Shown in pieces: positions 3,347 to 34,693 of a DNA stretch of 64,000 nucleotides (positions are counted from its first letter, which is position 1; the number at the start of each line of letters is the position of its first letter). This DNA comes from Eggerthella sinensis (GTDB lineage: Bacteria; Actinomycetota; Coriobacteriia; Coriobacteriales; Eggerthellaceae). Position numbers and translations under genes: made by a program. The stretch lies in contig NZ_PPTT01000006.1 of assembly GCF_003339815.1 (NCBI RefSeq), positions 62,001 through 126,000 of the forward strand, written 5' to 3'. The notes under the pieces are model-generated. The model was not told the DNA's origin. It saw only the letters and a program-made list of their open reading frames with translations, and did not search any database.

Positions 3347-3377
3347 GCGAGGCTCCTTGCCTTGGGGCGGGCGGGTT

Positions 3378-5988: not shown

Positions 5989-6035
5989 GGAGCGGATCCT
6001 TTACGTCTCGTCGTTCGTCGTGCGTGGGCCCGCGC

Positions 6036-6779: not shown

Positions 6780-6822
6780 AACGTTCCTCTCCCCAGCTCT
6801 CATAGCGCGTCCAAGAAGGGCG

Positions 6823-8187
6823 TTAATCCACCCAGATCGTGGCGGCGGTCATCCCCTGCATGTCCTTCGAGATCGTCGGCAGGGGGCCGAGGCGGCTGAA
6901 CACGCCGGTGAACATGCCGTCGTAGAGGTACAGGCCGTTCAGGTTGTTGTAGCGCTTCGGTTCGTCGGACACCTCGTCGTCGGGCAGCTCGTCGATGCCC
7001 GCGTCGGGCGGCAGCGTCTCGGTCTTGAAGGGGCGGATGTAGCGCTGCACGATGAAGGGGAAGCCGGCGCGGCCGTTCGCGAACTTGTCGATGAGCGCTT
7101 CCCACTCCTCCTGCGAGACCGAGCAGCCGGCGTACACGTCGTCGGCGCCGTAGTGGTCGGTGGGCTTGATGATCCATTCGTCCTTGTTCGCGCGGATTTG
7201 CGGCACGTTGATGTAGTCGTCGTCGAGGAAGGCCGTCATCGGCACCGTCTCCTCGATGAAGGAGATATCGTCGCCGTCGAGGAACGCCACGGTGCGCTCG
7301 TCGAACAGTACCTTGAAAATCTGCTTGTCGTGCACGATGTGCCCGGCGAAGCTGCCGATGAGCGCCACCTTTTCGGCGCGCACGGCGTTGAGCAGCTCCT
7401 GCGAGTCGTCCCAATGGTCGATGACGTCGTTCGTCACGCAGCGGCGCCAGATGGCGTCCACGCGCTGTCCGTCCTTGTCGCGCAGCACCTCGCCGTCGAA
7501 GCTCAGCTCGCGCACGTCGGCCACGACGCATTCCACGCCGCGCTGGCGGAACAGGTCGGCGTAGATGTGGAACTCGTCGACCACGCCGTTCTCGAGATAG
7601 TCGCAGATGGCGATGCGCGGGTTGTCGACGCGCCGCTCGTAGGTGGCGTAGATGTCCAGGAACGCCTGCACCCACGATTCGAACAGCTCGCAGCCCTGCA
7701 CCTGATGGCGCTCGGAGAAGCGCTTGAACGTCTCGGACTGCGCCACCGACGTGGTGATCTCGCGGTTCTCGTTCATGCCCGAGGAGCCGTCGGCGTTGAA
7801 CTCGCAGAACTTCACGCGGTAGTCGTCCTCGTCGATGAACGTGTCCACGCGCGCGAACGGCAGCACCGACGCGTAGCCGCGCGGCAGCAGGATGAGCTCC
7901 TCGAGGCGCGGGTCGAAGTCGAAGGCGCGGCGGTACTCGGGGTCGTCCAGGTAGTGCTCGATAACCTTGCACAGGATGCGGTGCGCCGTCTCGGCCGTGT
8001 CCTTCATCACCTCGTAGGTTTTCTTGTTGAACAGGCGCGGGATGAACGAGCAGGCCACCACCTGGTGGTGCACGATGGCCGTGGAGCGCTGCATGTAGTC
8101 GTACGCGGCGCGCCGTCCGGCGATGTCGCCGCCCAGTTCGTCCATGATCTGGAAGTACTCGTGCGTGTAGTCGGCATTGGTGGGCAT
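6823..8187 (-). CDS. ATP-grasp-like protein, substrate unknown
   Basis: Encodes 454 soluble residues. The C-terminal third contains DEWIIKPTDHYGADDVYAG and FIVQRYIRPFKTE, which look like the ATP-binding Lys strand/glycine loop and the Glu/Gln hinge of ATP-grasp ligases; the region around residues 105-135 (YRVKFCEFNADGSSGMNENRE) resembles the substrate segment of glutathionylspermidine-synthetase-like, circularly permuted ATP-grasp proteins. Such enzymes join a carboxylate to an amine or thiol with ATP. The partner gene that might show the substrate is absent: the neighbours are a Lit-like protein and gltX. RBS aaaggacgcacc precedes ATG 8187. It probably heads the minus-strand operon. Confidence 0.65.
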   Translation of the reverse strand: MPTNADYTHEYFQIMDELGGDIAGRRAAYDYMQRSTAIVHHQVVACSFIPRLFNKKTYEVMKDTAETAHRILCKVIEHYLDDPEYRRAFDFDPRLEELILLPRGYASVLPFARVDTFIDEDDYRVKFCEFNADGSSGMNENREITTSVAQSETFKRFSERHQVQGCELFESWVQAFLDIYATYERRVDNPRIAICDYLENGVVDEFHIYADLFRQRGVECVVADVRELSFDGEVLRDKDGQRVDAIWRRCVTNDVIDHWDDSQELLNAVRAEKVALIGSFAGHIVHDKQIFKVLFDERTVAFLDGDDISFIEETVPMTAFLDDDYINVPQIRANKDEWIIKPTDHYGADDVYAGCSVSQEEWEALIDKFANGRAGFPFIVQRYIRPFKTETLPPDAGIDELPDDEVSDEPKRYNNLNGLYLYDGMFTGVFSRLGPLPTISKDMQGMTAATIWVD

Positions 8188-8507
8188 GGTGCGTCCTTTC
8201 GGAACACCGCTTCCGAGGCATCGCGCGCCTCGGGGCGGGGGCTAGGTTTCAGCCGAAAAGTGTACCATGAGCTGCGCGGCCCGATCGAGGAAGTTGCCGT
8301 ATCGCCACAGGAACGGCGGTTGCGCGCCACCTTTGCGCGACCCCCTTCGGGCGCTCCGTCGGGTGCGGCTGCGAGCGGAAGCCGGAGGCGCTGTCCGGGC
8401 AGTCGTGGTGGTTGCGCGCTTGCCGTGCATTCGCCCTTGCGCGGATGTCGCTTTCAGGGTACCATCGGCAAGGTTTACGGGCGTTCCGGCCGCTTGCGCG
8501 GTTCCCG
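8188..8507. other. non-coding region between ATP-grasp gene and SAM riboswitch
   Basis: About 320 bases separate the divergent ATP-grasp gene and the metK leader. I see no plausible gene. The stretch must hold the minus-strand promoter of the ATP-grasp operon and the plus-strand promoter for the metK leader, but no hexamer pair stands out; tacCAT near 8460 is a weak -10 candidate for the leader. Confidence 0.4.
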
Positions 8508-8603
8508 TTTTATCAAGAGTCGGGGGAGAGAGTTGGCTCGATGATCCCGACACCAACCTGGCTGTATATGCCAAGGTGGTCCGGCCTACACCGATGAAGG
8601 AGG
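8508..8603 (+). promoter_or_regulatory. SAM riboswitch of the SAM-I/SAM-IV superfamily
   Basis: The leader of metK has the hallmarks of a SAM aptamer. TTTTATC (8508-8514) can pair with GATGAAG (8593-8599) as P1; ATCAAGAG follows P1 as in SAM-I; TCGGG pairs with CCCGA as P2, with a GAG/GATGA kink-turn-like internal loop; the P2 loop TTGG can pair with CCAA just after P2; and a third stem CCTGGC/GCCAAGG carries the conserved AAGGTG. The 3' strand of P1 runs into the Shine-Dalgarno AAGGAGG (8597-8603), so SAM binding should hide the ribosome site. This would repress synthesis of the enzyme that makes SAM. Confidence 0.75.
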
Positions 8604-13448: not shown

Positions 13449-14951
13449 CTACGACACCTTCATGGCCCCGAGCGCCTCGACGCTGCTCGCGGCCACCGTC
13501 GGCGCGCCCGTGAGGTTGGCGAAGAAGCGCTGCACGCCCACGCCGAGCGCTTCCCACCAGGCGGGGGCGGCCGCGTCGCGGACGGCCACGAGGTCGGCCT
13601 CCCACAGCACGGTTCCTCCCTGGCGAAAGGTCATGCGCCCCACGACGTCGCCGCGCCGCACGTCGCCGTGCACGTCGGCGAAGGCGACCTCCTGCTCGAT
13701 GCGCTCGGAACCCGCGGCCACCGTGACCGCTGCGTACGGGTCGGCTACGGTGGCCTCCACGGTGCGGTCCGTCCAGTCGCCGTGCGCAACCTTCGCCACG
13801 ACGGGGTAGGACGCCTCCGCGCCGGCGATCTCGGTTTTCGTCGAACTCGTCGCGTTCACCAGCTGATACGTCTCCTCGTCAACCTGCGGCGGCGCGCTTT
13901 CGCGCTCCTCGGGTCGCGCTTCCGCCTCGTCTTCGAGCGCGGCGCGGTGGGCGAACACCCAGTCGTAGAGCGCCTCGGCGTCGGCGAACCGCTGCGGCTT
14001 CGAGGAGGAGCCCAGCACGACCGCGTAGTACTCGTGCCCGTCGCCCCGGTTCACCGCCGAGGCCGAGCACGGCCCCGCGGCCAGCGTGTAGCCGGTCTTG
14101 GCGGCGCAGGTTCCCTCGTAGCTTCCCAGCAGCGCATCGGTGTTCGTCAGCGTGAGCGCGGTGGGCACGCCGCCGCGCTGCACCACGATGTCCACCTGCG
14201 CGTACCCGATGTTCGCGCGGATCAGGTCGTGCTGCATGGCCGCGCGCAGCATCGCGGCCACGTCCTGCGCGCAGCTGTGCTGCCCTTGCGCGAACGCGTC
14301 GAAGTCCAGCCCGTGCGGGTTCGTGAACAGGGAGTTCGCCAGATCGAGATCGCGCGCCTTGGCGTTCATCGCCTCCACGAACGCCGCCTCGCACGCCTGC
14401 GCGTCGCCGCTCGCGCCCTGCTCCTCGAGCAGCCGCGCCCCGGCCGCCTGCGCCACGGCCGCGGCGGCGTCGTTGCCCGAGGCCGTGAGCACCGCCTTGA
14501 GCGCGTCGTCGAACGTCATCGTGTCGCCCTCGACCAGGCCCGCGCTCGACTCCCCGATGCTCGCCGCCGTCGGCGTCACCTCGATCGTCGCCGCCGCGTC
14601 GAGGTGCTCCACCGCCACGAGGGCCGTCATGATCTTCGTGAGCGAGGCGATCTGCGCCTGATCGGCGGCCCCGCGCCCGAACCACAGGGTTCCGTCTTCG
14701 TCCATGAGCGCCGCGAACGACGCGTCGAGGTCGGGGGCCTGCTCGAGGGGCGTCCCGCGCTCGGCGATGCTCGTGCCCAGCACGAGGTCGTCCTCGCTCG
14801 TCACGGCGAACGCCGCCGCGTGCGGCAGGCAGGCGAAGCCGAGGGCGACGGCGAGGGAGAGGGCGCAGGCGAAGCCGAGGGCCAGGCTCGGGCCGACGCG
14901 GGCGAACCGGGTCGAAAGACCATTTGAACAGGCAAAACGATGTGCGATCAT
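13449..14951 (-). CDS. D-alanyl-D-alanine carboxypeptidase (peptidase S11)
   Basis: Encodes 500 residues. It trims the terminal D-Ala of peptidoglycan stem peptides outside the membrane. The N-terminus is a signal peptide (hydrophobic core ~23-47). Catalytic motifs are SLTK (Ser103-Lys106), SGN (158-160) and KTG (285-287). A C-terminal beta domain of the PBP5 type follows, ending in a possible amphipathic helix (WWEALGVGVQRFFANL) that could anchor it to the membrane. ATG 14951 is chosen because AAGGAG sits six bases upstream; longer upstream starts lack such a site. It converges on priA with only four bases between stops. Confidence 0.92.
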   Translation of the reverse strand: MIAHRFACSNGLSTRFARVGPSLALGFACALSLAVALGFACLPHAAAFAVTSEDDLVLGTSIAERGTPLEQAPDLDASFAALMDEDGTLWFGRGAADQAQIASLTKIMTALVAVEHLDAAATIEVTPTAASIGESSAGLVEGDTMTFDDALKAVLTASGNDAAAAVAQAAGARLLEEQGASGDAQACEAAFVEAMNAKARDLDLANSLFTNPHGLDFDAFAQGQHSCAQDVAAMLRAAMQHDLIRANIGYAQVDIVVQRGGVPTALTLTNTDALLGSYEGTCAAKTGYTLAAGPCSASAVNRGDGHEYYAVVLGSSSKPQRFADAEALYDWVFAHRAALEDEAEARPEERESAPPQVDEETYQLVNATSSTKTEIAGAEASYPVVAKVAHGDWTDRTVEATVADPYAAVTVAAGSERIEQEVAFADVHGDVRRGDVVGRMTFRQGGTVLWEADLVAVRDAAAPAWWEALGVGVQRFFANLTGAPTVAASSVEALGAMKVS

Positions 14952-15158
14952 CAGGGACTCCTTGCGCATGCGACGACGATGTCCTTCGACGACAGTATAC
15001 GCGACGCGCGCGCAGCGCCCCGCAGGTGCATGAAATCCATGGGCATGGACGGCGCGCATATTGTTGGTTACCGAATTGGCGGTTACCCGTCAACCCATGG
15101 TATCCTAGCGCATCGTGGGACGAGCTCGAACAAGCAGGTGTCGAAGGAGGGATGGGCT

Positions 15159-18071
15159 GTGAGAACAAAAGCAGCGCGCTGCGTCTGCTCGGCAATGGCA
15201 GCATTGCTGATCGCAACTACCGTCTTCGTCGCACCCGCATCGGCTGAAGCGGTGCCCGGTCAGTCGTCGGGAGCGGAGGTGACCGCCGAATCGTCCGATG
15301 CGGGCGATGCGGAAGCGTCATCGCACGAGTCGGCGGCCGAAGGGCCCCGCGAACCCGACGAACCCGACCCCGCATCCGCAACCGAACCCGAATCCCACGC
15401 GTCGCGTGCGATCAAAGTGGCGTTTCCCGAAGTTGCCGGCATCAGCGAAACCGACGAGAACGGCGTGCGCTCGGGGATCTTCTACGACTGGCTCGTCGAG
15501 ATCGCCAAGTACACCGGGTGGGAGTACGAGTTCGTCGACGGGGAGGCCGACGAGCTCATGGACCGCATCGTGGCCGGCGAGCTCGATCTCATCGGCGGCA
15601 TGTACTACCGCGAGCAGATCGCATCCTATTACGAGTACGCCGCCTATCCCATCGGGTCGAACCACGCGCTGCTCATCAGTTCGGAGGACGCCGACGACAT
15701 CGTCACCTTCGACCCCAAGACGCTGAACGGCAAAACCATCGGCGCGTTCGAGAACGCTGCCGAGAAGATTCGCCGTCTGGAAAACTACCTCGAGTTCAAC
15801 GGCATCGACTGCACCGTCAAGAGCTTGGAGTACGACGACTACATCCAGTGCCTGAGCACCGGTATCGCCGACGTCATGCTGGGAAACGATCCCGACGTCA
15901 TCGACGGCCGCAAGGTGGTGGCCGAGTTCGAAGGCGAGCCGTACTACATCGCCACGCCGGCGGGCAGCCCGTTGATCGACGAGCTGAACAATGCGATGAC
16001 CTCGATATACACCGCAGATTCCGAATTCGCCGAAGAACTCGACGTCAAGCACATGCCCTCGCGCTACCGAACCCCCATCGGGTTCTCGGACGCCGACCGC
16101 GCCTACATCGAGCAGGCGGGCGTCATCAGGGTGGCCGTCATGGAGGACCGCTACCCGCTCTACTACCAGCGCGACGGCCAGTACCAGGGCATCGTGAAGG
16201 ACGTGCTCGACCGCATCACCGAGCGCACGGGCCTCACGTTTCGCCTCGTGCACGCAAGCACCTACCAGGGGGCCATCGACCTCGTGAACGCCGGAGAAGC
16301 GGACATTATGGGCTGCTTCATGGACGACGGGTACGCCGCCGACGCCGAAGGGCTCGCCATCACCGACAGCTTCGCCGCGCTCAACGAGGTGGTGTTCCGC
16401 AACAAGCTCACCAGCTCGCAGGGCACCGTGTTCGCGCAGATCGAGGGGCGCTCCGGCTCGAACGGCGTGAGCGCGTCGGACATCGTGTACTACCGCACCT
16501 ACGAGGACTGCCTCGAAGCGGTGAACTCGGGACGCGCCGACATCACGAGCATGCCCGTCGCGTTCGCGGAGAGCCTGTTCACCGACCAGGCGTTCAACAA
16601 CATCACGCCCACCACCTCCGAGCACCACGACAGCAACCTCTCGCTCGCCTTCCCGAAGCCCGTCGATTCCGCGCTGTACTCCATCATGAGCAAGGCCGTG
16701 AACAGCTTCACCTCCGACGAGCTGGAAACCATCTCGTCGCGCAACACCATGCCCGCGTTCGGCCAGCAGCGCACCATCCAGGCCGTCGTGTCCGAGAATC
16801 CGCTGCTCATCGTGGCGCTCGGGTTGGTGCTGTGCCTGTTCGTCGGCGCCATCGTCGTGGTGGTGTCGGTGGCGAAGGTGCGCAACCGCATGATGGAGAT
16901 GAAGCTGGAGAAAGTGGAGGAGATGGGCCGCGCGAAGACCGACTTCCTCTCGCGCATGTCGCACGAGATTCGCACGCCCATGAACGCCATCATCGGCCTG
17001 TCGAACGTGGCGTCGCTGTCGGGCGAGGCCACGCCGTCCATCCGCTCGAGCCTCGAGAAGATCAACACCTCGGCGCAGTTCCTGTTGTCGCTCGTGAACG
17101 ACATCCTCGACATGAGCAAGATCGAGAACGACAAGATGCACATCGAGACGGCGCCGGTCAGCCTGCATTCGCTCGCCGATCGGCTGCAGAGCATGTTCTG
17201 CATTCAAGCCGAGGAGAAGGGCATCGTGCTCGAGGCGCGCTGCGACGCCGACGACGTGGTGGTGGCCGACGACGTGCGCCTGCAGCAGGTGCTGGCGAAC
17301 CTGCTGTCGAACGCGCTCAAGTTCACCGATCCCGGCGACACCATCCGGCTGAGCATCGGGGTGCTGCTGCGCGAGGAGGGCACGGTGAACGTGCGCTTCA
17401 GCGTGAAGGATACGGGCGCGGGCATCCACGAGGAGGATCTCGAGCGCATTTTCGTGTCGTTCGAACAGGCTTCCGGGAACCGTCTCAACGCGCAGGGCAC
17501 CGGTTTGGGGTTGGCCATCAGCAGCAACCTCGTGCGGCTCATGGGCGGCAAGCTCGACGTGAAGAGCGTCGCGGGCGAAGGCTCGGAGTTCTTCTTCATC
17601 CTCGACCTGCCCGCCGCCGTGGAGGCGCCTGCCTCAGCGGGGTCGTTCTGTGCGGTCGACGGCGTGCCGCCGCGCTCGCTTGCGGGCACGCGCGTGCTGC
17701 TGGCCGAGGACAACGACTTGAACGCCGAGATCGCCGTGGCGCTGCTCGACATGGAGGGCGTGGAAACCAAGCGCGCCGCCAACGGGCGCGAAGCGGTCGA
17801 CCTGTTCGCGCAATCGGTTCCCGGAACCTTCGACTTCGTGCTCATGGACGTGAAGATGCCGGTGCTCGACGGCCTCGAGGCGGCGGCGGAGATCCGCGCG
17901 CTCGCCCGCGTCGACGCGCGGGAGATCCCCATCATCGCGCTCACGGCCAACACGTTCCAGGAGGATCGCGAGGATGCGGCGGCCGCGGGCATGAACGGGT
18001 TCATCCCCAAGCCGTTCGACGCGAAGCAGCTCTACGACACGCTGCGCAGCTTCCTGCCGCCCGAGGGCTAA
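15159..18071 (+). CDS. hybrid histidine kinase with two periplasmic-binding sensor domains
   Basis: Encodes 970 residues. Order: signal peptide (1-30); acidic low-complexity linker; two tandem SBP_bac_3 domains (about 84-310 and 325-540, each opening with a beta-strand such as IKVAFPEVAG or VIRVAVMEDRYP); one membrane span (~548-570); HisKA with SHEIRTPMN, His near 602; HATPase with NLLSNALKF and GTGLGLAIS; and a receiver with Asp near 896 (FVLMDVKMPVLDG). It should bind extracellular small molecules and phosphorylate its own receiver. GTG 15159 is selected by GAAGGAGG eight bases upstream. No response-regulator gene adjoins; it converges on the binding-protein/5'-nucleotidase gene eight bases away. 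Confidence 0.93.
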   Translation: MRTKAARCVCSAMAALLIATTVFVAPASAEAVPGQSSGAEVTAESSDAGDAEASSHESAAEGPREPDEPDPASATEPESHASRAIKVAFPEVAGISETDENGVRSGIFYDWLVEIAKYTGWEYEFVDGEADELMDRIVAGELDLIGGMYYREQIASYYEYAAYPIGSNHALLISSEDADDIVTFDPKTLNGKTIGAFENAAEKIRRLENYLEFNGIDCTVKSLEYDDYIQCLSTGIADVMLGNDPDVIDGRKVVAEFEGEPYYIATPAGSPLIDELNNAMTSIYTADSEFAEELDVKHMPSRYRTPIGFSDADRAYIEQAGVIRVAVMEDRYPLYYQRDGQYQGIVKDVLDRITERTGLTFRLVHASTYQGAIDLVNAGEADIMGCFMDDGYAADAEGLAITDSFAALNEVVFRNKLTSSQGTVFAQIEGRSGSNGVSASDIVYYRTYEDCLEAVNSGRADITSMPVAFAESLFTDQAFNNITPTTSEHHDSNLSLAFPKPVDSALYSIMSKAVNSFTSDELETISSRNTMPAFGQQRTIQAVVSENPLLIVALGLVLCLFVGAIVVVVSVAKVRNRMMEMKLEKVEEMGRAKTDFLSRMSHEIRTPMNAIIGLSNVASLSGEATPSIRSSLEKINTSAQFLLSLVNDILDMSKIENDKMHIETAPVSLHSLADRLQSMFCIQAEEKGIVLEARCDADDVVVADDVRLQQVLANLLSNALKFTDPGDTIRLSIGVLLREEGTVNVRFSVKDTGAGIHEEDLERIFVSFEQASGNRLNAQGTGLGLAISSNLVRLMGGKLDVKSVAGEGSEFFFILDLPAAVEAPASAGSFCAVDGVPPRSLAGTRVLLAEDNDLNAEIAVALLDMEGVETKRAANGREAVDLFAQSVPGTFDFVLMDVKMPVLDGLEAAAEIRALARVDAREIPIIALTANTFQEDREDAAAAGMNGFIPKPFDAKQLYDTLRSFLPPEG

Positions 18072-18079
18072 CGGGCACG

Positions 18080-19987
18080 CTAGCCCACGATGAAGCGCCC
18101 GTCCTGCGCGGGCGCGACGGTCTTGGCGTCGCGCACCGCCTGCGCCACGATGTCGGCGACGGCGCGGTTCGACCGATCGCACGACAGCAGGTACTCGTCG
18201 GGCACCGTCTCGTCCATGACGGCGACGGTGTAGACGGCGTCGGGCTCGATGGCCGACCCGTCGCTGCGGGCGATGGCCTTGATCCTGCTGCCCGGTGCGG
18301 CCTGCGGATCGTAGGTCATCGTGAGCCCGGAGGCGTAGTAGAACCAGCCGGTTTGGTCGTTGTCCACGGGAAGGGCGTACTCGAGCGTGCGCAGCAGGTT
18401 CGCGCCGGTCATGCTCACCGTCCACATCGTGCCGGTCTCGCCGTGCTTGAGGTCGGGCAGGATGCGCAGCACGTCGGTCATGGTCACGGTGCCGCCGTAC
18501 AGCCGCCCGCTGATGCCCTTGCCGTTGTAGCGCCCGTCCTTGCCGTTGTCCAAAAACAGCGCGACGTCGGCGCCGCTCGCCTCGCGCAGCGCATCGGCCA
18601 CGAAGCCGCCCGTCTCGGCCAGCGTGAAGTCGCTCGCGGCCGCCCCGAGCACCTCCTCCTCGTTCGAGGCGCTCTGCGGCGCGGCGTTCTGCGCGTCCAC
18701 CATCTCGATCACCTGGGCGCTCGTCGTGTCGCCGCGCACCATGCCGGCCAGCCCCTCGCGCAGCGCGTCCTGGGCGTTGGCCAGGGTGGGGAAGGACCCG
18801 TAGCGGCCGTGCTCCAGCGCGTTGCGCATGTCGTCGATCTCGGGCACGTCGGGCGCGCCGACGCCGGTGAGGTTCGAGTACATGGCGCCCGTGTCGGACA
18901 TGAGCGCCTCCTGGCCTTCGGGCGTGCTGAGGTAGTCCATGATGCGCATGACGGCGTCGTAGACGGTTTCGTTGCCCGCCTGCGCGATCTGCTTGCCCAA
19001 CCCGATGTAGCAGACGGGGTAGAGCCGTGCCCAGTCGCCGCCGTCGCCGGGGTTGAAGAACGGCATGAGCGCGAACTCGTCGGTGGTGCCCGTCTGGCTC
19101 TCGCCCATGCGCGCCATGAGCACCGAATCCTCCACCATGGCGCACCCGCGCGTGAACAGCATGGTCTCGCGCTGCGCGTAGTCCACGTCGAGGTCGCCCG
19201 CTTGCAGGATGTTCTCGTCGACGAGCGTCTGGAACGTGTCGAGCGCCGGTTGGAACTGGTCGCCGAAGCTCGCGCCGTCGTTGCGGTCGTACGCCTCGAG
19301 CCAGCGCTCGTCCTGCGGCTTGCCGTAGCAGGACGCGAAGCCGAAGCCCGTGAACGCGGTGTCGAGCACCTCGGCGTTCTTGAGGCCCAGCTGCAGCGAG
19401 CGCATGCCGCTGTCCTCGATGGTGCGGCACAGCTCCACGAACCCGTCGAAGTCGGCGGGGACCTCCCAGCCGTTCTCGGCGAACAGCGTCTTGTTGTACA
19501 CGATGCCGCGCACCTGCGCGGGGCCGGGCAGGTAGTACAGCTTGCCGTCGCGTGCGATCTCGTTGAGCGCCGAGATGTTGTAGCGGCTCGAGAAGCCCAT
19601 GCCGCTCAAGTCGAGCAGATTGTCGTCCCAGTACTGCTCGCCCACCTCGTAGGGCCAGGTCATCACGATGTCGGTGAGGTCGCCGTGCGCGAGGCGCGCC
19701 TCGTATTCGTCGATGCCCATCTCGCGCGTGTAGTTGCCCACCTGCACGATGTCGATGTCGGGAAACTGCTCTTCCACGGCCTGCTCGAAGCCGTTGACGG
19801 TGAAGGCGTACTTCACGAGGACGGACACCTGCGTCCGCCCCTCCTCGGCAACCTTCTGCGACAGCACGTCGCCGTCCTCGCTCGAGCTGCTCGCGCACGC
19901 GACGGTGCTCACGAGCAGGGACGCCGCGACGCAGGCTGCGAGCGCGCCGCGCGCGAGACGACGCAGGGCCGGATGTGCGGACATCAT
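18080..19987 (-). CDS. substrate-binding lipoprotein fused to 5'-nucleotidase C-terminal domain
   Basis: Encodes 635 residues. An N-terminal signal peptide with a lipobox-like Cys (LLVSTVACASSS) predicts a lipoprotein. Residues ~30-420 resemble family-1 ABC solute-binding proteins (LYYLPGPAQVRGIVYNKTLF, NENGWEVP-type segments, CYIGLGKQIAQ). Residues ~445-635 match the 5'-nucleotidase C-terminal domain (ETGGFVADALREASGADVA, TMTDVLRILP, SMTGANLLRTLEYALP). The metallophosphatase half of a nucleotidase is absent, so the C-terminal part may only bind ligand. Its start overlaps the EAL gene stop (ATGA), with GGAG before it, implying coupled translation. It may be a sensory ligand binder, as no permease gene is present. 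Confidence 0.82.
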   Translation of the reverse strand: MMSAHPALRRLARGALAACVAASLLVSTVACASSSSEDGDVLSQKVAEEGRTQVSVLVKYAFTVNGFEQAVEEQFPDIDIVQVGNYTREMGIDEYEARLAHGDLTDIVMTWPYEVGEQYWDDNLLDLSGMGFSSRYNISALNEIARDGKLYYLPGPAQVRGIVYNKTLFAENGWEVPADFDGFVELCRTIEDSGMRSLQLGLKNAEVLDTAFTGFGFASCYGKPQDERWLEAYDRNDGASFGDQFQPALDTFQTLVDENILQAGDLDVDYAQRETMLFTRGCAMVEDSVLMARMGESQTGTTDEFALMPFFNPGDGGDWARLYPVCYIGLGKQIAQAGNETVYDAVMRIMDYLSTPEGQEALMSDTGAMYSNLTGVGAPDVPEIDDMRNALEHGRYGSFPTLANAQDALREGLAGMVRGDTTSAQVIEMVDAQNAAPQSASNEEEVLGAAASDFTLAETGGFVADALREASGADVALFLDNGKDGRYNGKGISGRLYGGTVTMTDVLRILPDLKHGETGTMWTVSMTGANLLRTLEYALPVDNDQTGWFYYASGLTMTYDPQAAPGSRIKAIARSDGSAIEPDAVYTVAVMDETVPDEYLLSCDRSNRAVADIVAQAVRDAKTVAPAQDGRFIVG

Positions 19988-22281
19988 CGCTCCTCGCCTT
20001 CCTCGTTCGTCTCTTCGCCGAACGCCAGGCGCTCGAAGTCGGCGATGGGCATCGGGCGCGCGAACACGTAGCCCTGCACGTAGTCGCAGCCGATCTCCTC
20101 GAGCATGTCCACCTGATCCTCGTACTCGACGCCCTCGGCCACCGTGTCCATGTTGAGGGCCTGCGCCATGCTCACGATGCTCTGCACCACCGAGCGCGTG
20201 CGCGCCGGGTCCTTCGTGCGGTTGCGGAAGAAGATCTTGTCGAGCTTGAGCGTGTCGGCGGGGATGGATTGGATCATGTTGAGCGAGGAGTACCCGCTGC
20301 CGAAGTCGTCGATGGAGCAGTCGAAGCCCGCCTCGTGGATGTCCTCGATGACCTCGATGAGGCGATGCGAGTCCTCCATGACGATGCCCTCGGTGAGCTC
20401 GATCTCGATGAGCCGCTCGGGGATGCGGTAGCGATCGGCGATGGCGCGGTACGCATCGAGGAAGTTCTTGCTCTTCACGTGGGCGCGCGAGCAGTTCACC
20501 GACGTCTTCGGCGGCGTGAGCCCCCGGTCGATCCACCCGCGCAGCGTGCGGCACACCTCCTCGAACACGTGGAGGTCGAGCGTGACGATGAACCCGTTCT
20601 TCTCGAACAGGGGGATGAACTCGTCGGGGAATATCATGCCCTCCGAGGCGCTCACCCAGCGCGTGAGGGCCTCGGAGCCGCCCACGACGCGCTCGGGCAG
20701 GCGGTACTTCGGCTGCAAATACACCTGGAACTCGCCTTCGAGCATGGCGCGCTCCATCATGTCCTCGAGCTGCTTCTCGCGCACGAGCAGGCGGCGCACC
20801 TCGTCGTCGTACACGGCGTAGCGAATCTTGCCGCCGATGGCTTGGGGCGATTCGCGCAACGCCAGCTTCGCGCGGTCGATCATCTGGGGGAAGGGCAGCT
20901 CGTCGTTGTCGATGACGAAGATGCCGAACTCCACGATGGGCAGGTTCCACTGCGGCTGGTTCTCCTCGAGGAAGCGCTCGGCGATGCGGTACCATTCGGC
21001 GAAGCGCTCGCGCAGCCACGGCTCGCCGTCGAACTCGATGAGGATGCAGAAGTTGTCGGCCGACTGCCGCCCGATGTACTCGCCGGGGCGCAGCCCGCTC
21101 TCGATGGTTTCCGAGAACATGCGCAGCAGGTCGTCGCAGGAGCGGCGGCCGAACTGCTCGTTGAGCACCTTGAACTTCTCCATGTTCGTGTAGACGAGCG
21201 CGTAGCGCGGCCGATCCGTCGCGGACAGCGATTGCTGCGCCAGGTCGTAGAAGCGTTGGATGGTGTGGCCGCTCGTCACGTCGTCCACGTAGGCGATGTG
21301 CTCGAGTTTTCGGCGGTTGCGCGACGAGGTGAACAGCAAGAACGCCACGAGCGCGGCGAAGGCCGCCGTCACGACGCCGCACATGAGCAGCGTTGCGCCC
21401 AGCATCATGTCCGAGCGCGCGTTCACCACGCTCGCGGGCACGAACGTGAGCAGGTACCAGTTCTGCGGCGCGATGGGCGTGTACACGGCGTAGTAGCGCA
21501 CGTCGTCGATGGTGAAGCCGATCTGACCCTTCCCCTCGGCGGCCATGGAGGATTTCATCGACTCGAGGCTGTCGTCCTGATCGAGCTCCGACTGCCCGAT
21601 GGTGGTCAGCACGTTGTAGCCCAGTTCGAGGGCGGAGGGGGAGGACGAGCGCACGACGATGGTGCCGCCGCGGTCGATGATGCACGAGAACGACTGTCCG
21701 TCGAACGACGACATGGACAGCGTCTCGTCGAAGGATGCCGGCTCGTACACGGCGGCCATCGCCACCATGGGCGTGCCGTCCATGGTGATGTTCTCGAGCG
21801 GGATGGACAGCGCGATGCGCTCTTCGTTGTCGATCATCTGCGCGTTCGAGATGACCGCCCTGCCTTCGCTCACCGCATCCATGAAGTACGCGTCGTTGTC
21901 AAGCTTCACGGGCTCGCCGGTGCTCGCGTACGCCTTGCCGTCCGCGTCGATGAGCATGATGTCCTGGAACTCCCAGCCTTCGCGCTGCGCCTCGACCACG
22001 GCGGCGAAGCGGGAGAAGGTGGTCACCTGCGCGGTGTGCAGGCCCGACGACACCGTGTGCAGGAACGAGTAGTTGTCGGCGATGGTGCGGTCGATGTTCG
22101 CGCCGATGCGCGTGGCGATTTCCTGGAGGTAGCCGCCGCTCTCGGCGCGGATGGTGCTCTGCAGCTGCTGGTAGTATTGGAAGCTGAACGTTCCCACGAC
22201 GATGCAGGCGAGCGCGAACGTCGCAAGCGACAGCTTGAGGGAGCCCTTGAAAGCCGGCATCCTGCGGTGAGTACGTCCCAT
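19984..22281 (-). CDS. dCache-GGDEF(degenerate)-EAL c-di-GMP phosphodiesterase
   Basis: Encodes 765 residues. Order: N-terminal membrane span (~18-38); extracytoplasmic dCache-like sensor to ~310; second span (~315-340); GGDEF domain whose active site reads RQSADNF instead of GGDEF (near 407), so no cyclase activity is expected; EAL domain from ~510 with EALTRW, ELTEG, IDDFGSGYSS, LKLDKIFF, VAEGVE and QGYVF, which keep the metal and catalytic residues, so c-di-GMP hydrolysis is likely. ATG 22281 has AAAGGA six bases before it. It is cotranscribed with the binding lipoprotein downstream and has a promoter at 22397-22370. Confidence 0.92.
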   Translation of the reverse strand: MGRTHRRMPAFKGSLKLSLATFALACIVVGTFSFQYYQQLQSTIRAESGGYLQEIATRIGANIDRTIADNYSFLHTVSSGLHTAQVTTFSRFAAVVEAQREGWEFQDIMLIDADGKAYASTGEPVKLDNDAYFMDAVSEGRAVISNAQMIDNEERIALSIPLENITMDGTPMVAMAAVYEPASFDETLSMSSFDGQSFSCIIDRGGTIVVRSSSPSALELGYNVLTTIGQSELDQDDSLESMKSSMAAEGKGQIGFTIDDVRYYAVYTPIAPQNWYLLTFVPASVVNARSDMMLGATLLMCGVVTAAFAALVAFLLFTSSRNRRKLEHIAYVDDVTSGHTIQRFYDLAQQSLSATDRPRYALVYTNMEKFKVLNEQFGRRSCDDLLRMFSETIESGLRPGEYIGRQSADNFCILIEFDGEPWLRERFAEWYRIAERFLEENQPQWNLPIVEFGIFVIDNDELPFPQMIDRAKLALRESPQAIGGKIRYAVYDDEVRRLLVREKQLEDMMERAMLEGEFQVYLQPKYRLPERVVGGSEALTRWVSASEGMIFPDEFIPLFEKNGFIVTLDLHVFEEVCRTLRGWIDRGLTPPKTSVNCSRAHVKSKNFLDAYRAIADRYRIPERLIEIELTEGIVMEDSHRLIEVIEDIHEAGFDCSIDDFGSGYSSLNMIQSIPADTLKLDKIFFRNRTKDPARTRSVVQSIVSMAQALNMDTVAEGVEYEDQVDMLEEIGCDYVQGYVFARPMPIADFERLAFGEETNEEGEER

Positions 22282-22604
22282 ACTGCGTCCTTTCGACGGA
22301 AGAGCATCGGACCGGTGCGCGATGCCGTGGGGCGCGCGAAGCCGAATCAAACGACGTACGCGTTATTAAAGCATAGGTTGGCAAGAAAATGTTGCAAGAA
22401 CGCGACCGAATTGCTACGCGTTCTAAAATGCCTGTTCATTCGTGCGAACAGGGAGGGGGGCCGGCCCTGCACCACCCCGTTTGAAGCTTTATATTCGTCG
22501 TCTAAAACGGGCCCAACTATGATAAACTATTTGGCTGTATCTTTGCGCCTGGTGCGTATGTATACTCATGCCCAGCGCGCAGTCCTGTCGGAAAGGAAGA
22601 TCAC
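22282..22604. other. 323-base divergent control region of the EAL gene and rpoD
   Basis: No gene seen. It is less GC-rich than the flanks. Inverted repeats: GAACGCG (22398-22404) / CGCGTTC (22417-22423), and CTGTTC (22432-22437) / GAACAG (22446-22451). Plus-strand -10-like boxes for rpoD lie at TAAAAT 22424, TATGAT 22518 and TATACT 22561, none with a good -35 box; rpoD genes often have several promoters. Confidence 0.45.
22370..22397 (-). promoter_or_regulatory. promoter of the EAL/binding-lipoprotein operon
   Basis: On the minus strand TTGCAA (22397-22392), 16 bases, TATGCT (22375-22370). Transcription would start near 22363, about 80 bases before ATG 22281. Confidence 0.45.
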
Positions 22605-29141: not shown

Positions 29142-32100
29142 CTAGCGGCTGCGGGCGCGCTGCTTCTCGTCGTACATGGCGCGGTCGGCGCGGCGAATCA
29201 GGTCGCTCAGCGTGAAAGGCGCCCGGCTCCATGCGCTGCCGACGGCGGCCGTGGCAACCACCGCGCGGTTCTCGCAGAGCGCGCGCAGGGCCTCCTCCCA
29301 CCGCGCGACGAGCGCCGCCAGCTCGGCCTCGTCGCAATCGCAGGCCACCACGATGAACTCGTCGCCGCCGTAGCGGTAGCCGTGCACGCGCTCGTCGGAT
29401 ATGGCGTGGATGCCGTCGGCCACGAGCCGCAGCATGATGTCGCCCTGTTCATGGCCCTGCGTGTCGTTCACCGTCTTCAAATGGTTCACGTCGAAGAACA
29501 GCACGCCGCACGACGAGAGCCCCAGGTACGCGTCGTCCCGCATGCGCGCGAGGCAGGTGCGGTTGAAGAGCCCCGTCAGCTCGTCGCGCTCGGCCTTCTC
29601 GCGCTCCTCGCGGGCCAGCTGCTCGGTGAGGTCGGTGTAGTAGCCGCTCAGCAGCAGGTTGCCGTCGCGGTCGTCGGTCACGCGGTAGAACACCTGCATG
29701 GGCACGTAGCCGCCGTCGCCGCGGATGAGGCGCAGGCGCAGCGTGATGGTGTCGCGGGTGGATACGAGCTTGCCCAGCGCTTCGTTCGCCATCTCCACAT
29801 CGTCGGGGTGGACGCCGGTGAAGCCGTCCTCGCTGTAGAACTCGACGCACTCGCGGTGGCTCATATGGCTCATGCGGCAGAACTCCTCGTTGATGAACAG
29901 GGGGATGGTCCGCCCGTCGGGCGTCACCCGCTGCTGGACGAAGCCGCCGGGCATGTCCTTCATGAGGTCGTGCATGACGCGGTTGTCGTGCAGGATCTGC
30001 TCCTCGTCGTCGCGGCGGCGCAGGATGGCCGTCACGTAATCGCCGAGCGCGACGAGGTGGCTCGCGTGCGAGACGTTGCGCGCGGGGTTGTCGACGCCCA
30101 TGAACCCGACGAGCCGCTCGCCGGTGCGCAGCGGCACGAGGATGATGCTCTCGATGCCCTGGCCGGTGATGATGTCGTTCTCGTCGATGCCGCTCTCGAC
30201 GATGGCATCCACTCCGTCGAGGCAGATGCTCTCGCCGGTTCCCAGGATGCCGAGCGTGCGCGTGTAGGCCGTGCAGGGAAGATCCTGCAGGTTGTGCTGC
30301 TCGGAGGGGACGCCGGGCGCGCAGCATTCGTAGGTGTTGTTGGTCAGCCCCTCCTCATCGTCGAGCTCGAACACGTAGGCGCGGTCGCCGGCGAAGTACG
30401 TGCGCATCTTCTCGAGGGCGAGGCGGATGGAGTCGTCCGGGTCGGCGCCCACCAAGAGGTAGCGCGAGGCGTCGTTGAGGAACTGCAGCTGCTCGTTGAT
30501 CTCGCGCGCGCGGCGCTCGGCGCGGCGCTGGTCGGCGAGGGCGGCGCCGAGCGAGCGCGTCTCATCGCTGATGGGCGTGTACGTGGTGTACATCACGGTT
30601 TTGCTCGGCCCCTTCTCCACCACGCGTCCGACGAGGTGGAAGGGCAGGTAGCCGCCGTCGCCTTTGAGCGTGCGCAGGTCGCATTCCATCATGCAGTCCT
30701 CGCGCACGGCCTCGTCGATGGCGCGCAGGAACCGTGCGCGGTCGTCGGGATGGACGGCGTGGATGGCGTCGTGGACGCGCAATTCGGCCGCATCGCGTCC
30801 GATGAGCTCGATGTAGCGCTTGTTGATGTGCGGGCAGTCGATGCTGCCGTCTGAGGCGATCTCGAAGATGATCGCGCCGCACGGCAGGTTGTCCAACAGC
30901 TCGCGGCGACGCTCCTCCTGCGCGGCTTCCGGCGTCACGTCGGCGTAGTAGCCGTTCGTGTACTTCGTGCCGTCCGAGTCGGTCGTGGTGCGGTAGTACG
31001 CCTGGAACAGCTGGTAGCCCTTCTCCCGATGGAGGAACCGCGCCCGCGCCGAGAACACGCAATCCTCTTCCATGGCCTTCACGGCCGCCTGCTGGATGGC
31101 GAGGACGTCGTCGGGATGAACGCCCGCGTAGGCATCCTCGGTGTAGAGCGCCATCGCCTCGTCGTGCGTCATGCCCATCATATGGCAGAACCCGTCGTTG
31201 ATGAACACGGGCACGGCGTTGCCGCCGGCGGACATCCTCATGCGGACGAAGCCGCCGGGCGTGTCGTTCATGAGCTTTTGCGCCAGCTCGCCGTCCTGCT
31301 CGGAGCGCCGCGTCTGATTGCGCCGCGCGAGCATGGCCGCCAGGTAGTCGCCGATGGCGGCCAGCTGGTCGACGTGGCGCGCGTTCTTGCGCGGGTCGTC
31401 GACGCCGGCGTAGCCGACGAGCCGCCCCTCGCTCCACAGCGGCACGAGAAACGCGCTGCGGATGCCCTGCCGCTCGAGCACGCGCCGCTCCCGAAGGCCG
31501 TTCTCGGGCATGCCGGCCACGTCCTCGATGCGCACGACGCGGTCGTTGCGGAACTCTTCGAGCACGTAGGCTTGCGACGCGTACGGAAGATGCTGGAGGT
31601 TCGCCTGCTCCGAGGGCACGCCGGCAGCGCACACCTCGTAGGTGTTCGCCGCCTCCTCGCGCTCGTCGTCCAGCTCGAAGAGGTAGGACCGCTCGCCGTC
31701 GAAGTGCTCGAGGATCTTGCGCAGCGCCCGGTGGATGGCCGCGTCGGGGTCGGTGCCCACGAGCAGCAGGCGCGACGTCTCGTTGAGGAAGCGCAGCTGG
31801 TCGTTGATCTCCTGCGCACGCGCATCCGCCGCGCTCTGGGTGCGCAGGGCGCTCTCGAGGCGCGCGCGGGCGAGCAGGGGGCTTACGGGAAGCGTGACGA
31901 TGCCGTCGGCGCCGTGCTCGAGCGCCGATGCCTGCGCGTCCTCGTCGTCCTTCGGCGCGAGCGCGAGCACCGGCAGGCCCCGGGCGTCGTCGTCGCGCCG
32001 GAGCAGGTCGAGGAAGGTGTGGGCCTTGGGTGCGGACAAGTTGCATAGGACGGCGGCGGGCGCGTCGACGCGCACGGCGCGGAGCGCCTCGTCGGCGCCG

Positions 32101-32225
32101 TGCGCGAGCACGAGGCGGAAGCCGTCGCCGAACGTGTGCGCGAGAGATGCTCGCTCGTCCGGCGTGCAGCAGGCGAGCAGCAGCGTCATCTTCGGTTGTC
32201 CTCCGGCGGCGTTCGCGCAGACCAT
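29142..32225 (-). CDS. diguanylate cyclase with pseudo-receiver and duplicated GAF-PAS modules
   Basis: Encodes about 1027 residues, no membrane span. Order: receiver-like domain whose phosphorylatable Asp position reads CNLSAP, so phosphotransfer is unlikely; GAF 1, PAS 1, a central PAS (PAS 2), GAF 2, PAS 3 and a GGDEF domain with intact RYGGDEFIVV near 952. GAF1-PAS1 and GAF2-PAS3 are clear duplicates (EINDQLRFLNETSRLLLVG versus EINEQLQFLNDASRYLLVG). It should make c-di-GMP under cytosolic control. ATG 32225 follows AAAGGA; ATG 32249 and 32189 are possible. It is divergent from the phosphodiesterase at 32447. Confidence 0.92.
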   Translation of the reverse strand: MVCANAAGGQPKMTLLLACCTPDERASLAHTFGDGFRLVLAHGADEALRAVRVDAPAAVLCNLSAPKAHTFLDLLRRDDDARGLPVLALAPKDDEDAQASALEHGADGIVTLPVSPLLARARLESALRTQSAADARAQEINDQLRFLNETSRLLLVGTDPDAAIHRALRKILEHFDGERSYLFELDDEREEAANTYEVCAAGVPSEQANLQHLPYASQAYVLEEFRNDRVVRIEDVAGMPENGLRERRVLERQGIRSAFLVPLWSEGRLVGYAGVDDPRKNARHVDQLAAIGDYLAAMLARRNQTRRSEQDGELAQKLMNDTPGGFVRMRMSAGGNAVPVFINDGFCHMMGMTHDEAMALYTEDAYAGVHPDDVLAIQQAAVKAMEEDCVFSARARFLHREKGYQLFQAYYRTTTDSDGTKYTNGYYADVTPEAAQEERRRELLDNLPCGAIIFEIASDGSIDCPHINKRYIELIGRDAAELRVHDAIHAVHPDDRARFLRAIDEAVREDCMMECDLRTLKGDGGYLPFHLVGRVVEKGPSKTVMYTTYTPISDETRSLGAALADQRRAERRAREINEQLQFLNDASRYLLVGADPDDSIRLALEKMRTYFAGDRAYVFELDDEEGLTNNTYECCAPGVPSEQHNLQDLPCTAYTRTLGILGTGESICLDGVDAIVESGIDENDIITGQGIESIILVPLRTGERLVGFMGVDNPARNVSHASHLVALGDYVTAILRRRDDEEQILHDNRVMHDLMKDMPGGFVQQRVTPDGRTIPLFINEEFCRMSHMSHRECVEFYSEDGFTGVHPDDVEMANEALGKLVSTRDTITLRLRLIRGDGGYVPMQVFYRVTDDRDGNLLLSGYYTDLTEQLAREEREKAERDELTGLFNRTCLARMRDDAYLGLSSCGVLFFDVNHLKTVNDTQGHEQGDIMLRLVADGIHAISDERVHGYRYGGDEFIVVACDCDEAELAALVARWEEALRALCENRAVVATAAVGSAWSRAPFTLSDLIRRADRAMYDEKQRARSR

Positions 32226-32446
32226 GTTCCCGATCCTTTCCGTGCTCATGAATAGGGTTCCAGTGTAGCAAGTTTCGGGTGCGCGCGGGGCTGCGGAAAA
32301 GTGGAATCTATGCGATGTCGTGCCTGATGAACGTGTAAAAACCTGCTGACACGAACGCGCCGTCAAGTCAAGGGTTAAGATGGCGACGAACGTGCGCATA
32401 TACTGGACGCATTCGTATTGGCACCACGCCGAAGGGATCGCGCCGC

Positions 32447-34693
32447 ATGAGAACCCCCGAAGGAAACAAAGGCTCCCTTGCGCTCTATCTGACCGCGCTG
32501 GCGGTGCTCGCCCTCGCCACGGCCGTCGTGTGCAGCGTGACGTTGCAGCGGGGCGCGGACATCGCTCGCGAGGACACCGACCGGTACCTGACCGAGCTCT
32601 CGCGGCAGACGGCCTTCAAGATGGATCAGCGGGTCTCGTTCAACCTGGAACTGCTGGGCTTGCTCGGGCGCGAGCTGGCCATCGACGGCCCCTCCGAGGA
32701 CAGCCGCGCGGCGTCGGTGGCGGCGTACGTGGACAACGGCCCCTTCGAATGGATCGGCACGGTGGACGCGGCGGGCATGCTGCGTGTGGACGGGCGCGAG
32801 GTGCGCGACGTTTCCGGGTTCGGCGCGGTGGCCCGCGCGCTCGCGGGCGAGACGGCGGTGAGCGAGGGCCTCGTCGCCGTGCTCGACGAGCGGGAAGGCG
32901 CGCTGTACGCCGCGCCCGCCTCGGACGATCCCGCCATAGGCGCCGTGGTGGGCTGGGTGCCGCCCGAGCGGATGCAGCTGCTCATGGACACCGACACGTC
33001 CGACGGGGTGGGGTTCTCCCACGTCGTGGCCGAGAACGGCGACTTCATCCTCAAGTCGTCGAACGGCAACGCCGTGCTCGAGGGGGAGAGCTTCTTCGCC
33101 GCCCTTGCCGCCGATGCGACGTTCGAGGAGGGGAGCCTCGCCGAGCTGCAGCGCAGCATGGAGGCTGGAGAAAGCGGGCATGTCCGCTTCTCCGTGAACG
33201 GCCAGGCGCGCGAGATGACCTTCGCCCCGCTCGGCAGGGGCGGTTGGTACCTCATGTCCATCGTGCCGCCCGACGCGTACGTGGGCGCGCTCAGCGCGTA
33301 CACGGCGTTCTCGGTGGGCGGCGTGGCGGCGGTGGCGTGCGCGGCCTTCGCGGCGTTCGGCGGCCTGCTGCTCTGGACGTCGGCGCGCAAGAACCGCGAG
33401 ATCAAGCGCATGGCCTACGTCGATCCCGTGACGGAGGGACACACGGCGGCGCGCTTCGATCAGCTGCTGGCGCGCAGGATGGGCGAGGGGCGCCCGTTCA
33501 CGTTCCTCTCGCTCGACATCAAGGACTTCAAGCTGGTCAACGACTTCTTCGGCAAGGACAAGGGCGACCTCACCCTGAAGTACCTGCATCGGCTCGTCGT
33601 GGAGGAGCTCGCCGGAGGGGAGTTCGCCGCACGCGTGTCCTCCGACGTGTTCAACGTGGTGCTCGACGACGCCGACCCCGCGCGCGCCACCGCATGGATC
33701 GATCGCATCGCCACGCGGCTCAACGCGTACAACCATATGGGCGACACGCCCTACCTGCTGGCGCTCAGCTGCGGGGCGTACCTGGTGGACGACGCGCCGC
33801 TCGACATCGTGACCGTCAGGGACCGCGCGAACGCCGCGCGCAAGGAGGCCTCCGCGTCGGGCTTGAGCCTGTGCAGCATCTCGTTCTGCAACGACGCCGA
33901 CTTCGAGCGCATCCTGCGCGACAAGGAGCTGGAGAACCGCATGGACGACGCCTTGGCGAAGGGCGAGTTCGTGGCCTACCTGCAGCCGAAGGTCAGCCTG
34001 CGCGACGGTCGCCCCGTGGGCGCCGAGGCGCTCGTACGGTGGATCAGCGCCGAGCGGGGGCTCATCCCGCCCAACGACTTCATCCCGCTGTTCGAGCGCA
34101 ACGGGTTCGTGGTCAAGATCGACCTGTGCGTGTTCGAGCAGGCGTGCCGCCTCGTGCGCTCGTGGCTCGATGCGGGCGTCGATCCGCTTCCCCTGTCGGT
34201 GAACCTCTCGCCCGTGCACCTGCGCATCCCCGGTTTCCTCGACGCGTTCGAGCAGATCAGGGCGCGCTACGACGTGCCGGCCCGGTACTTGGAGCTGGAG
34301 CTCACCGAGCGCGTGGCGTTCGAGAACCTCGAGCTTCTGGGACGCGTGGTGGACGAGATCCACGAGCTGGGATTCACGTGCTCCATGGACGACTTCGGCA
34401 GCGGCTACTCCTCGCTCAACGTGCTCAAGGACATCCCCGTGGACGTGCTCAAGATCGACCGCACGTTCTTCAGCAGCGACGACGAACGTGCCCGCGACGT
34501 GGTGGCCTCGGTGGTGGAGCTGGCGAAGAAACTGGACATGGGCACGGTGGCCGAGGGTATCGAGACCATCCCGCAGGTGGAGGTGCTGCGCGCCATGCGC
34601 TGCGACGCCGTGCAGGGCTACGTGTTCTCCGCGCCCGTGCCGGCGGACGAGTTCGAGCGCGTTTTTCTCAAGGGGGAGGGGGCGGGCCGCTGA
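32447..34693 (+). CDS. dCache-GGDEF(degenerate)-EAL c-di-GMP phosphodiesterase
   Basis: Encodes 748 residues with the same design as the protein at 19984: membrane span, extracytoplasmic sensor, second span (~288-312), degenerate GGDEF (RVSSDVF near 398), and an EAL domain with EALVRW, ELTER, MDDFGSGYSS, LKIDRTFF, VAEGIE and QGYVF, so hydrolysis of c-di-GMP is likely. ATG 32447 has GAAGGGA about ten bases upstream. The divergent neighbour is a cyclase, so the pair probably opposes each other on c-di-GMP with different inputs, one external and one cytosolic. 197 bases lie between them. Confidence 0.92.
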   Translation: MRTPEGNKGSLALYLTALAVLALATAVVCSVTLQRGADIAREDTDRYLTELSRQTAFKMDQRVSFNLELLGLLGRELAIDGPSEDSRAASVAAYVDNGPFEWIGTVDAAGMLRVDGREVRDVSGFGAVARALAGETAVSEGLVAVLDEREGALYAAPASDDPAIGAVVGWVPPERMQLLMDTDTSDGVGFSHVVAENGDFILKSSNGNAVLEGESFFAALAADATFEEGSLAELQRSMEAGESGHVRFSVNGQAREMTFAPLGRGGWYLMSIVPPDAYVGALSAYTAFSVGGVAAVACAAFAAFGGLLLWTSARKNREIKRMAYVDPVTEGHTAARFDQLLARRMGEGRPFTFLSLDIKDFKLVNDFFGKDKGDLTLKYLHRLVVEELAGGEFAARVSSDVFNVVLDDADPARATAWIDRIATRLNAYNHMGDTPYLLALSCGAYLVDDAPLDIVTVRDRANAARKEASASGLSLCSISFCNDADFERILRDKELENRMDDALAKGEFVAYLQPKVSLRDGRPVGAEALVRWISAERGLIPPNDFIPLFERNGFVVKIDLCVFEQACRLVRSWLDAGVDPLPLSVNLSPVHLRIPGFLDAFEQIRARYDVPARYLELELTERVAFENLELLGRVVDEIHELGFTCSMDDFGSGYSSLNVLKDIPVDVLKIDRTFFSSDDERARDVVASVVELAKKLDMGTVAEGIETIPQVEVLRAMRCDAVQGYVFSAPVPADEFERVFLKGEGAGR

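Follow-up and report, generated by a model that had tools for sequence, protein, structure and literature searches.

The window examined here, a 64,000-nucleotide stretch of the genome of Eggerthella sinensis (contig NZ_PPTT01000006.1, positions 62,001 to 126,000), carries on its minus strand two overlapping genes, the first of which encodes a membrane sensor with an EAL domain and the second a lipoprotein (Table 1). The overlap of the EAL-gene stop with the lipoprotein start as ATGA, noted in a first-pass annotation made from the sequence alone, is real and extends over four bases, and the two genes are likely to be translationally coupled through it. Either of two adjacent ATG codons may be the true lipoprotein start. 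The second follows directly upon the first and would leave an overlap of 1 base instead of 4; an AGGAG lies 2 bases 5' of the first ATG and 5 bases 5' of the second and, since the latter spacing is the better, translation perhaps begins three bases later. Transcription of both genes is expected to start in the divergent intergenic region between them and the gene of a sigma-70-type factor, where a scan for promoters gave no match to the sigma-70 consensus.

Table 1. The gene pair and further features of the 64-kb window
Feature	Position	Strand	Description
Lipoprotein gene, 635 aa	18080..19987	-	Signal peptide, lipobox Cys31, family-1 solute-binding domain, degenerate 5'-nucleotidase C-domain
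Two-TM sensor gene, 765 aa	19984..22281	-	Extracytoplasmic dCache, degenerate GGDEF, EAL
ATGA stop/start overlap of the sensor and lipoprotein genes	19984..19987	-	4 bases
Stretch coding for the 5_nucleotid_C domain	18212..18619	-	Pfam match, profile positions 22-144
Loop DNGKDGRYNGKG	18515..18550	-	Lipoprotein residues 480-491
Divergent intergenic region	22282..22604		Between the pair and the sigma-70-type factor gene (22605)
SAM riboswitch	8507..8600	+	Above the Rfam gathering score
BvgS-like hybrid histidine kinase gene	14940..18071	+	Two SBP_bac_3 stretches; convergent with the lipoprotein gene
1085-aa GAF/PAS/GGDEF protein gene	29142..32399	-	Probable diguanylate cyclase
Further EAL domain (784-aa frame)	33935..34636	+	Immediately precedes tRNA genes; taken from the list of EAL domains in the whole genome

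Domain composition of the two proteins

The Pfam matches of the sensor comprise dCache_1 (residues 43-278, 60.9 bits against a cut-off of 45), GGDEF (residues 332-478, 43.2 bits, cut-off 23.8) and EAL (residues 508-743, 201.2 bits, cut-off 31.3). The dCache domain, which the first-pass annotation had recognised, lies between transmembrane helices placed by hydropathy at about residues 14 and 292; the GGDEF domain was absent from that description. The GGDEF signature is degenerate, reading SADNF at position 407, and the form xADxF takes its place in all seven EAL partners of the lipoprotein family described below. The same seven proteins keep the segments EAL, N, E.TE, DDFG, K, AEG and QG, which we take to be the catalytic motifs of EAL domains. 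Because these segments are kept while the GGDEF domain is degenerate, the sensor should be a dedicated phosphodiesterase.

A scan of the whole lipoprotein against Pfam matched SBP_bac_8 (residues 72-368, 43.5 bits, cut-off 27) and 5_nucleotid_C (residues 457-592, 68.2 bits, cut-off 23.6) only, with no match to a metallophosphatase domain. The unusual composition proposed at first, a family-1 solute-binding domain joined to the C-domain of 5'-nucleotidases without their metallophosphatase half, is thereby confirmed. The lipobox cysteine, Cys31, is invariant among 17 aligned relatives. The best PDB matches of the lipoprotein family profile and of its solute-binding half are sugar and oligosaccharide binders, and a sugar or oligosaccharide is the most likely ligand. 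When the lipoprotein structure was predicted from an alignment of two rows, those of the window and Anaerorhabdus furcosa, the mean pLDDT was 34.4 and the model was discarded.

Homologues of the lipoprotein and their neighbours

Homologues were found within the same family in at least 12 of 138 genomes, within the class in at least 14 of 396 and within the Erysipelotrichales (Bacillota) in at least 16 of 315, among them A. furcosa; in the class and order searches the best three or four candidates per genome were scored. We refer to the 21 loci of the family and class hits together with A. furcosa as set A and to the 17 Erysipelotrichales loci other than A. furcosa as set B. The Pfam scan covered these loci except L135, L138, L139, L145, L147, L130 and L146.

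A sensor gene lies on the same strand directly beside the lipoprotein gene at 19 of the 21 loci of set A, the gap ranging from -26 to +136 bases; the exceptions are a relative in G015 that has no adjacent sensor and one in G083 (G083b) at a contig end. The 5_nucleotid_C domain exceeds the Pfam cut-off in 15 of the 21, falls below it in two (22.7 and 19.3 bits) and gives no match in four. The partners of these 15 fusions are GGDEF-EAL proteins in seven cases (window, G052, A. furcosa, G020a, G062, G065a, G053b) and hybrid histidine kinases in eight (G075, G076, G066, G053a, G067, G065b, G020b, G415b). All nine long forms scanned in set B carry the C-domain and eight adjoin a histidine kinase (seven by Pfam, L143 by a local HMM), while the ninth, L140, is cut by the contig end. 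Altogether, 23 of 24 Pfam-confirmed fusions, in two phyla, have a membrane sensor as their same-strand neighbour, an EAL protein in 7 cases and a hybrid histidine kinase in 16; the remaining one is L140. Several of the kinase partners have no Pfam-significant dCache domain. The pairing of lipoprotein and sensor, first suggested from the window alone, is thus conserved in other genomes, and the co-occurrence with EAL proteins is real (7/24); the idea needs to be broadened in that the partner is a membrane sensor, mostly dCache-like, and not specifically an EAL protein, being a histidine kinase in 16 of the 24.

The C-domain is not needed for the coupling to a sensor, since six of the 21 relatives in set A have no Pfam-significant C-domain and solute-binding proteins free of it are also found next to sensors. 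In the genome of the window itself, such proteins adjoin EAL proteins on contigs C35 and C67 and a histidine kinase on contig C15. At the first of these loci (L037, 5365-8936) the gene of a C-domain-free SBP_bac_1/8 lipoprotein overlaps a GGDEF-EAL gene by 4 bases. The second (L084) holds another solute-binding lipoprotein (2699-4174) followed by an EAL-containing sensor (4258-7239) and, because the same spacing recurs in G052, G053, G020 and G065, this arrangement forms a second and more widespread pair of solute-binding and EAL proteins. At the third (L038, 7234-12544) the solute-binding protein gene is followed by that of a 1309-aa dCache hybrid kinase ending in REC and HD domains, a one-chain route from sensor to presumed c-di-GMP hydrolysis. 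Judged by coordinates, 11 of 18 SBP_bac_8 genes in five genomes lie on the same strand within about 3.6 kb of an EAL domain. One further open frame, of 978 aa (L029:8931-11867, minus strand), places a complete GGDEF domain ahead of a dCache-GGDEF-EAL protein; it could represent a fusion or result from a wrongly called start.

Five of the kinase clusters of set A (G075, G076, G066, G053a, G020b) include a response regulator of REC-HD-GGDEF architecture with the motifs HDIGK, HHERxDG and GGDEF; they also hold a small gene, identified by scanning as Hpt in L024, with counterparts of like size and position in the other clusters. Beside the pair in set B, L132 has a REC-HD-PAS-GGDEF protein and L142 a REC-EAL-GGDEF protein. 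Counting the seven EAL partners, these five clusters and the two loci of set B, a c-di-GMP enzyme is found in at least 14 of the 24 clusters.

Apparent exchange of the pair and of its output

A locus syntenic with the window is found in G020. The neighbours of the pair are identical there to those of the window at 77% (the end of PriA, last 81 residues only), 54% (a DacA-like protein), 62% (a VFT kinase), 87% (the sigma factor), 84% (an RlmL-like protein) and 73% (PadR); the names PriA, DacA-like and PadR are our presumed assignments, those of the sigma factor, the kinase and RlmL being supported by Pfam. The lipoprotein and EAL protein at this locus are only 30% and 36% identical to those of the window, and the pair is inverted. 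The nearest relatives of the window pair are found in G052, where they occupy a different locus (67% and 61%), and in A. furcosa (54% and 44%); the three lipoproteins form one clade with support of 100/100. The simplest reading is that both genes were replaced at once.

In a tree of 23 lipoproteins four changes between EAL and kinase labels are needed, although the starred branches force only one and several branches are long; this suggests that the output has been swapped repeatedly. The sensor ectodomains covary strongly with the lipoproteins (r = 0.94 overall, mostly among near relatives), whereas across output types the covariation is not significant (r = 0.12, permutation p = 0.29).

The 5'-nucleotidase C-domain

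The nucleotide-pocket columns R379, R410, F429/N431 and D504 (UshA numbering) were placed on the lipoproteins through the alignment of L033 to UshA; we take these residues, together with the GGDG motif, to form the pocket. The comparison spans 35 family members, leaving out L147, which is split by a stop, and the short solute-binding proteins L144 and L146; the F498 column, one residue off the aromatic of the enzymes, was not used. Both arginines, P[FY]xN and GD are kept in all 14 true 5'-nucleotidases aligned. The window lipoprotein and its closest relatives, those of G052 and A. furcosa, lack R379 and GGDG and have PFxN replaced, with serine or threonine at R410 in the trio (serine in the window protein). 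Of the 35, six (G067, G065b, G020b, L134, L136 and L137) retain GD as well as both arginines, and all six are coupled to histidine kinases; none of the seven EAL-coupled C-domains does so, PYTN alone being kept in G020a. The 24 confirmed fusions divide into six that keep the nucleotide pocket and eighteen that do not.

The ligand first proposed, a nucleotide or nucleoside, is not borne out by these residues or by the solute-binding half, whose nearest matches in the PDB are sugar binders. The idea that the C-domain, with or without the solute-binding half, has kept its affinity for a nucleotide, which it would present to the dCache domain, draws on the homology with 5_nucleotid_C and on the six intact members, whose C-domains align well with true 5'-nucleotidases; but with the pocket gone from the window protein, and intact pockets confined to kinase-coupled members, we regard it as unlikely, though it fares marginally best among the alternatives.

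The C-domains of the window protein and of A. furcosa are nevertheless 53.4% identical, a value above that of the GGDEF (41.5%) and dCache (34.0%) domains and near that of the solute-binding half (59.5%) and the EAL domain (58.5%), from which we conclude that this domain is still under constraint. Its sequence suggests that in the window protein it has been re-used and is no longer a nucleotide site, perhaps serving as a docking face. In the place of the NGGGIR pocket motif of the true enzymes stands the loop DNGKDGRYNGKG (Table 1), which is largely invariant in three relatives; its likeness to a calcium-binding loop is faint and only a lead, because its third position is G.

Transport or sensing

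A local HMM for BPD_transp_1 detected no permease in the 64-kb window, in 20 loci of set A or at two further solute-binding protein loci of the same genome; as a positive control, the same HMM finds permeases beside the two ABC-type solute-binding proteins of that genome. The earlier observation that no ABC permease lies nearby therefore holds for the whole window, and the confirmed fusions adjoin sensors, not mainly permeases. The short relatives are different: permease genes follow both L144 (417 aa, lacking a C-domain in the Pfam scan; permeases Pfam-confirmed) and L146 (422 aa, too short for a C-domain). In set B, therefore, sensor coupling accompanies the C-terminal extension and transport its absence, a rule that is not absolute; L147, which stands outside the 24 fusions, has transporter permeases with their own solute-binding protein two genes upstream.

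ABC importers are the usual partners of family-1 solute-binding proteins, and with 19 BPD_transp_1 matches in the genome the lipoprotein could serve a distant importer and merely be co-transcribed with the EAL gene. Sensor linkage in 23 of 24 fusions across two phyla, the signs that both genes were exchanged together and the contrast with the short relatives beside permeases make this improbable.

The dCache domain could also be the ligand sensor by itself, with the lipoprotein as an accessory that concentrates the ligand or modifies the envelope; its match above the Pfam cut-off would suit such a role. No other part of the pair is as poorly conserved, however, and the pattern Y..R.W[YF], which we take to mark amino-acid dCache pockets, occurs in none of the 19 sensors. 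The window dCache has WY only near its membrane-proximal end. An aromatic pair is common to purine, amino-acid and amine dCache pockets (PMC11245519). The missing ligand motif fits a dCache domain that would receive a protein instead of a small molecule, and we give sensing by dCache alone about the same low odds as transport.

Hardly to be credited is inside-out control as in LapD-LapG, where a degenerate GGDEF and EAL protein has an outside partner, with the GGDEF/EAL protein reading cytosolic c-di-GMP and the dCache domain retaining or releasing the lipoprotein outside: the domain arrangement recalls that system, but the LapD family match reaches 79.5 of 1020 bits, far under the cut-off, the EAL motifs are intact in all seven proteins, the partner is a solute-binding protein instead of a protease, and the majority of the family is found with histidine kinases, whose signalling is directed inwards.

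A proposed two-protein receptor with exchangeable output

The existence of a module of binding lipoprotein and sensor with exchangeable output is well supported. Since relatives across two phyla keep the lipoprotein beside a membrane sensor, its role is probably to inform internal signalling of an outside nutrient and not to import that nutrient. We favour, with a probability of about 0.6, the reading that lipoprotein and sensor are one receptor that binds an extracellular solute, docks on dCache and tunes c-di-GMP hydrolysis. The lipoprotein would be anchored outside, in the cytoplasmic membrane, its solute-binding domain capturing a small extracellular solute; in its loaded (or empty) state it would dock on the dCache domain of its partner, and the resulting conformational change would be relayed across the membrane to the degenerate GGDEF domain and the EAL domain, so that c-di-GMP hydrolysis by the latter would rise or fall. 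The former 5'-nucleotidase C-domain may provide a docking or second recognition surface. From the sequences we infer that the lipoprotein controls the EAL enzyme, as we do the ligand class, the physical contact, the direction of the effect and the role of the C-domain.

More tentatively, and at less than even odds, the C-domain may be a recruited signalling module that, joined to a family-1 solute-binding protein, makes a transport protein the dedicated co-receptor of dCache-type sensors; the domain could then lose its pocket and become a docking face as sensors exchanged a histidine kinase output for a c-di-GMP phosphodiesterase or the reverse, in two or more phyla. If so, a domain fusion visible in sequence would mark solute-binding proteins that report and do not import, would supply an outside partner for dCache sensors without a ligand motif of their own and would show the re-wiring of one input protein between kinase and second-messenger output. 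To our knowledge, the extracellular input has been identified for only a minority of c-di-GMP enzymes. The 24 fusions in two phyla, six pocket-keeping and eighteen not, would make a simple test set.

Comparison with known systems

We found no published description of a solute-binding protein fused to a 5'-nucleotidase C-domain in the literature covered, from which subscription journals are mostly missing. The C-domain of UshA and CD73 (PF02872) is homologous to that of the lipoprotein, but the window protein is without the metallophosphatase half and has lost the nucleotide-pocket residues. The BvgS-type VFT sensor kinases, in which periplasmic-binding folds drive the kinase, offer a likeness; they differ in holding the binding domains within the kinase chain, whereas the window binder is a separate lipoprotein. 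A kinase of this type happens to lie next to the pair in the window (Table 1), and in G020 a relative with 62% identity to it (L027:11322-14114) is likewise the neighbour of the EAL-lipoprotein pair.

The binding of solute-binding proteins to receptor ectodomains is presented as a general mechanism that activates sensor kinases, cyclases/phosphodiesterases and others (PMC9602780). Examples of sensor kinases that depend on solute-binding proteins are BctC-BctE (PMC9602780) and CuaD (PMC10384115), with which the kinase-coupled lipoproteins may be compared. In NspS-MbaA of Vibrio cholerae, NspS binds polyamines and MbaA is a bifunctional cyclase and phosphodiesterase (PMC8967002). It shares with the window pair a separate outside solute-binding protein and a membrane GGDEF-EAL protein, together with the control of c-di-GMP, which for the window pair we infer (PMC8967002); adjacent genes and an extracytoplasmic ectodomain between two transmembrane helices are common to both. 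The differences are that the window binder is a sugar-type lipoprotein with a 5'-nucleotidase C-domain, not of the PotD/NspS polyamine kind, that its partner has a degenerate GGDEF domain, as do all seven EAL partners, and that relatives use histidine kinases instead. By analogy, the window pair may work like NspS-MbaA, which is its closest working parallel but not its orthologue.
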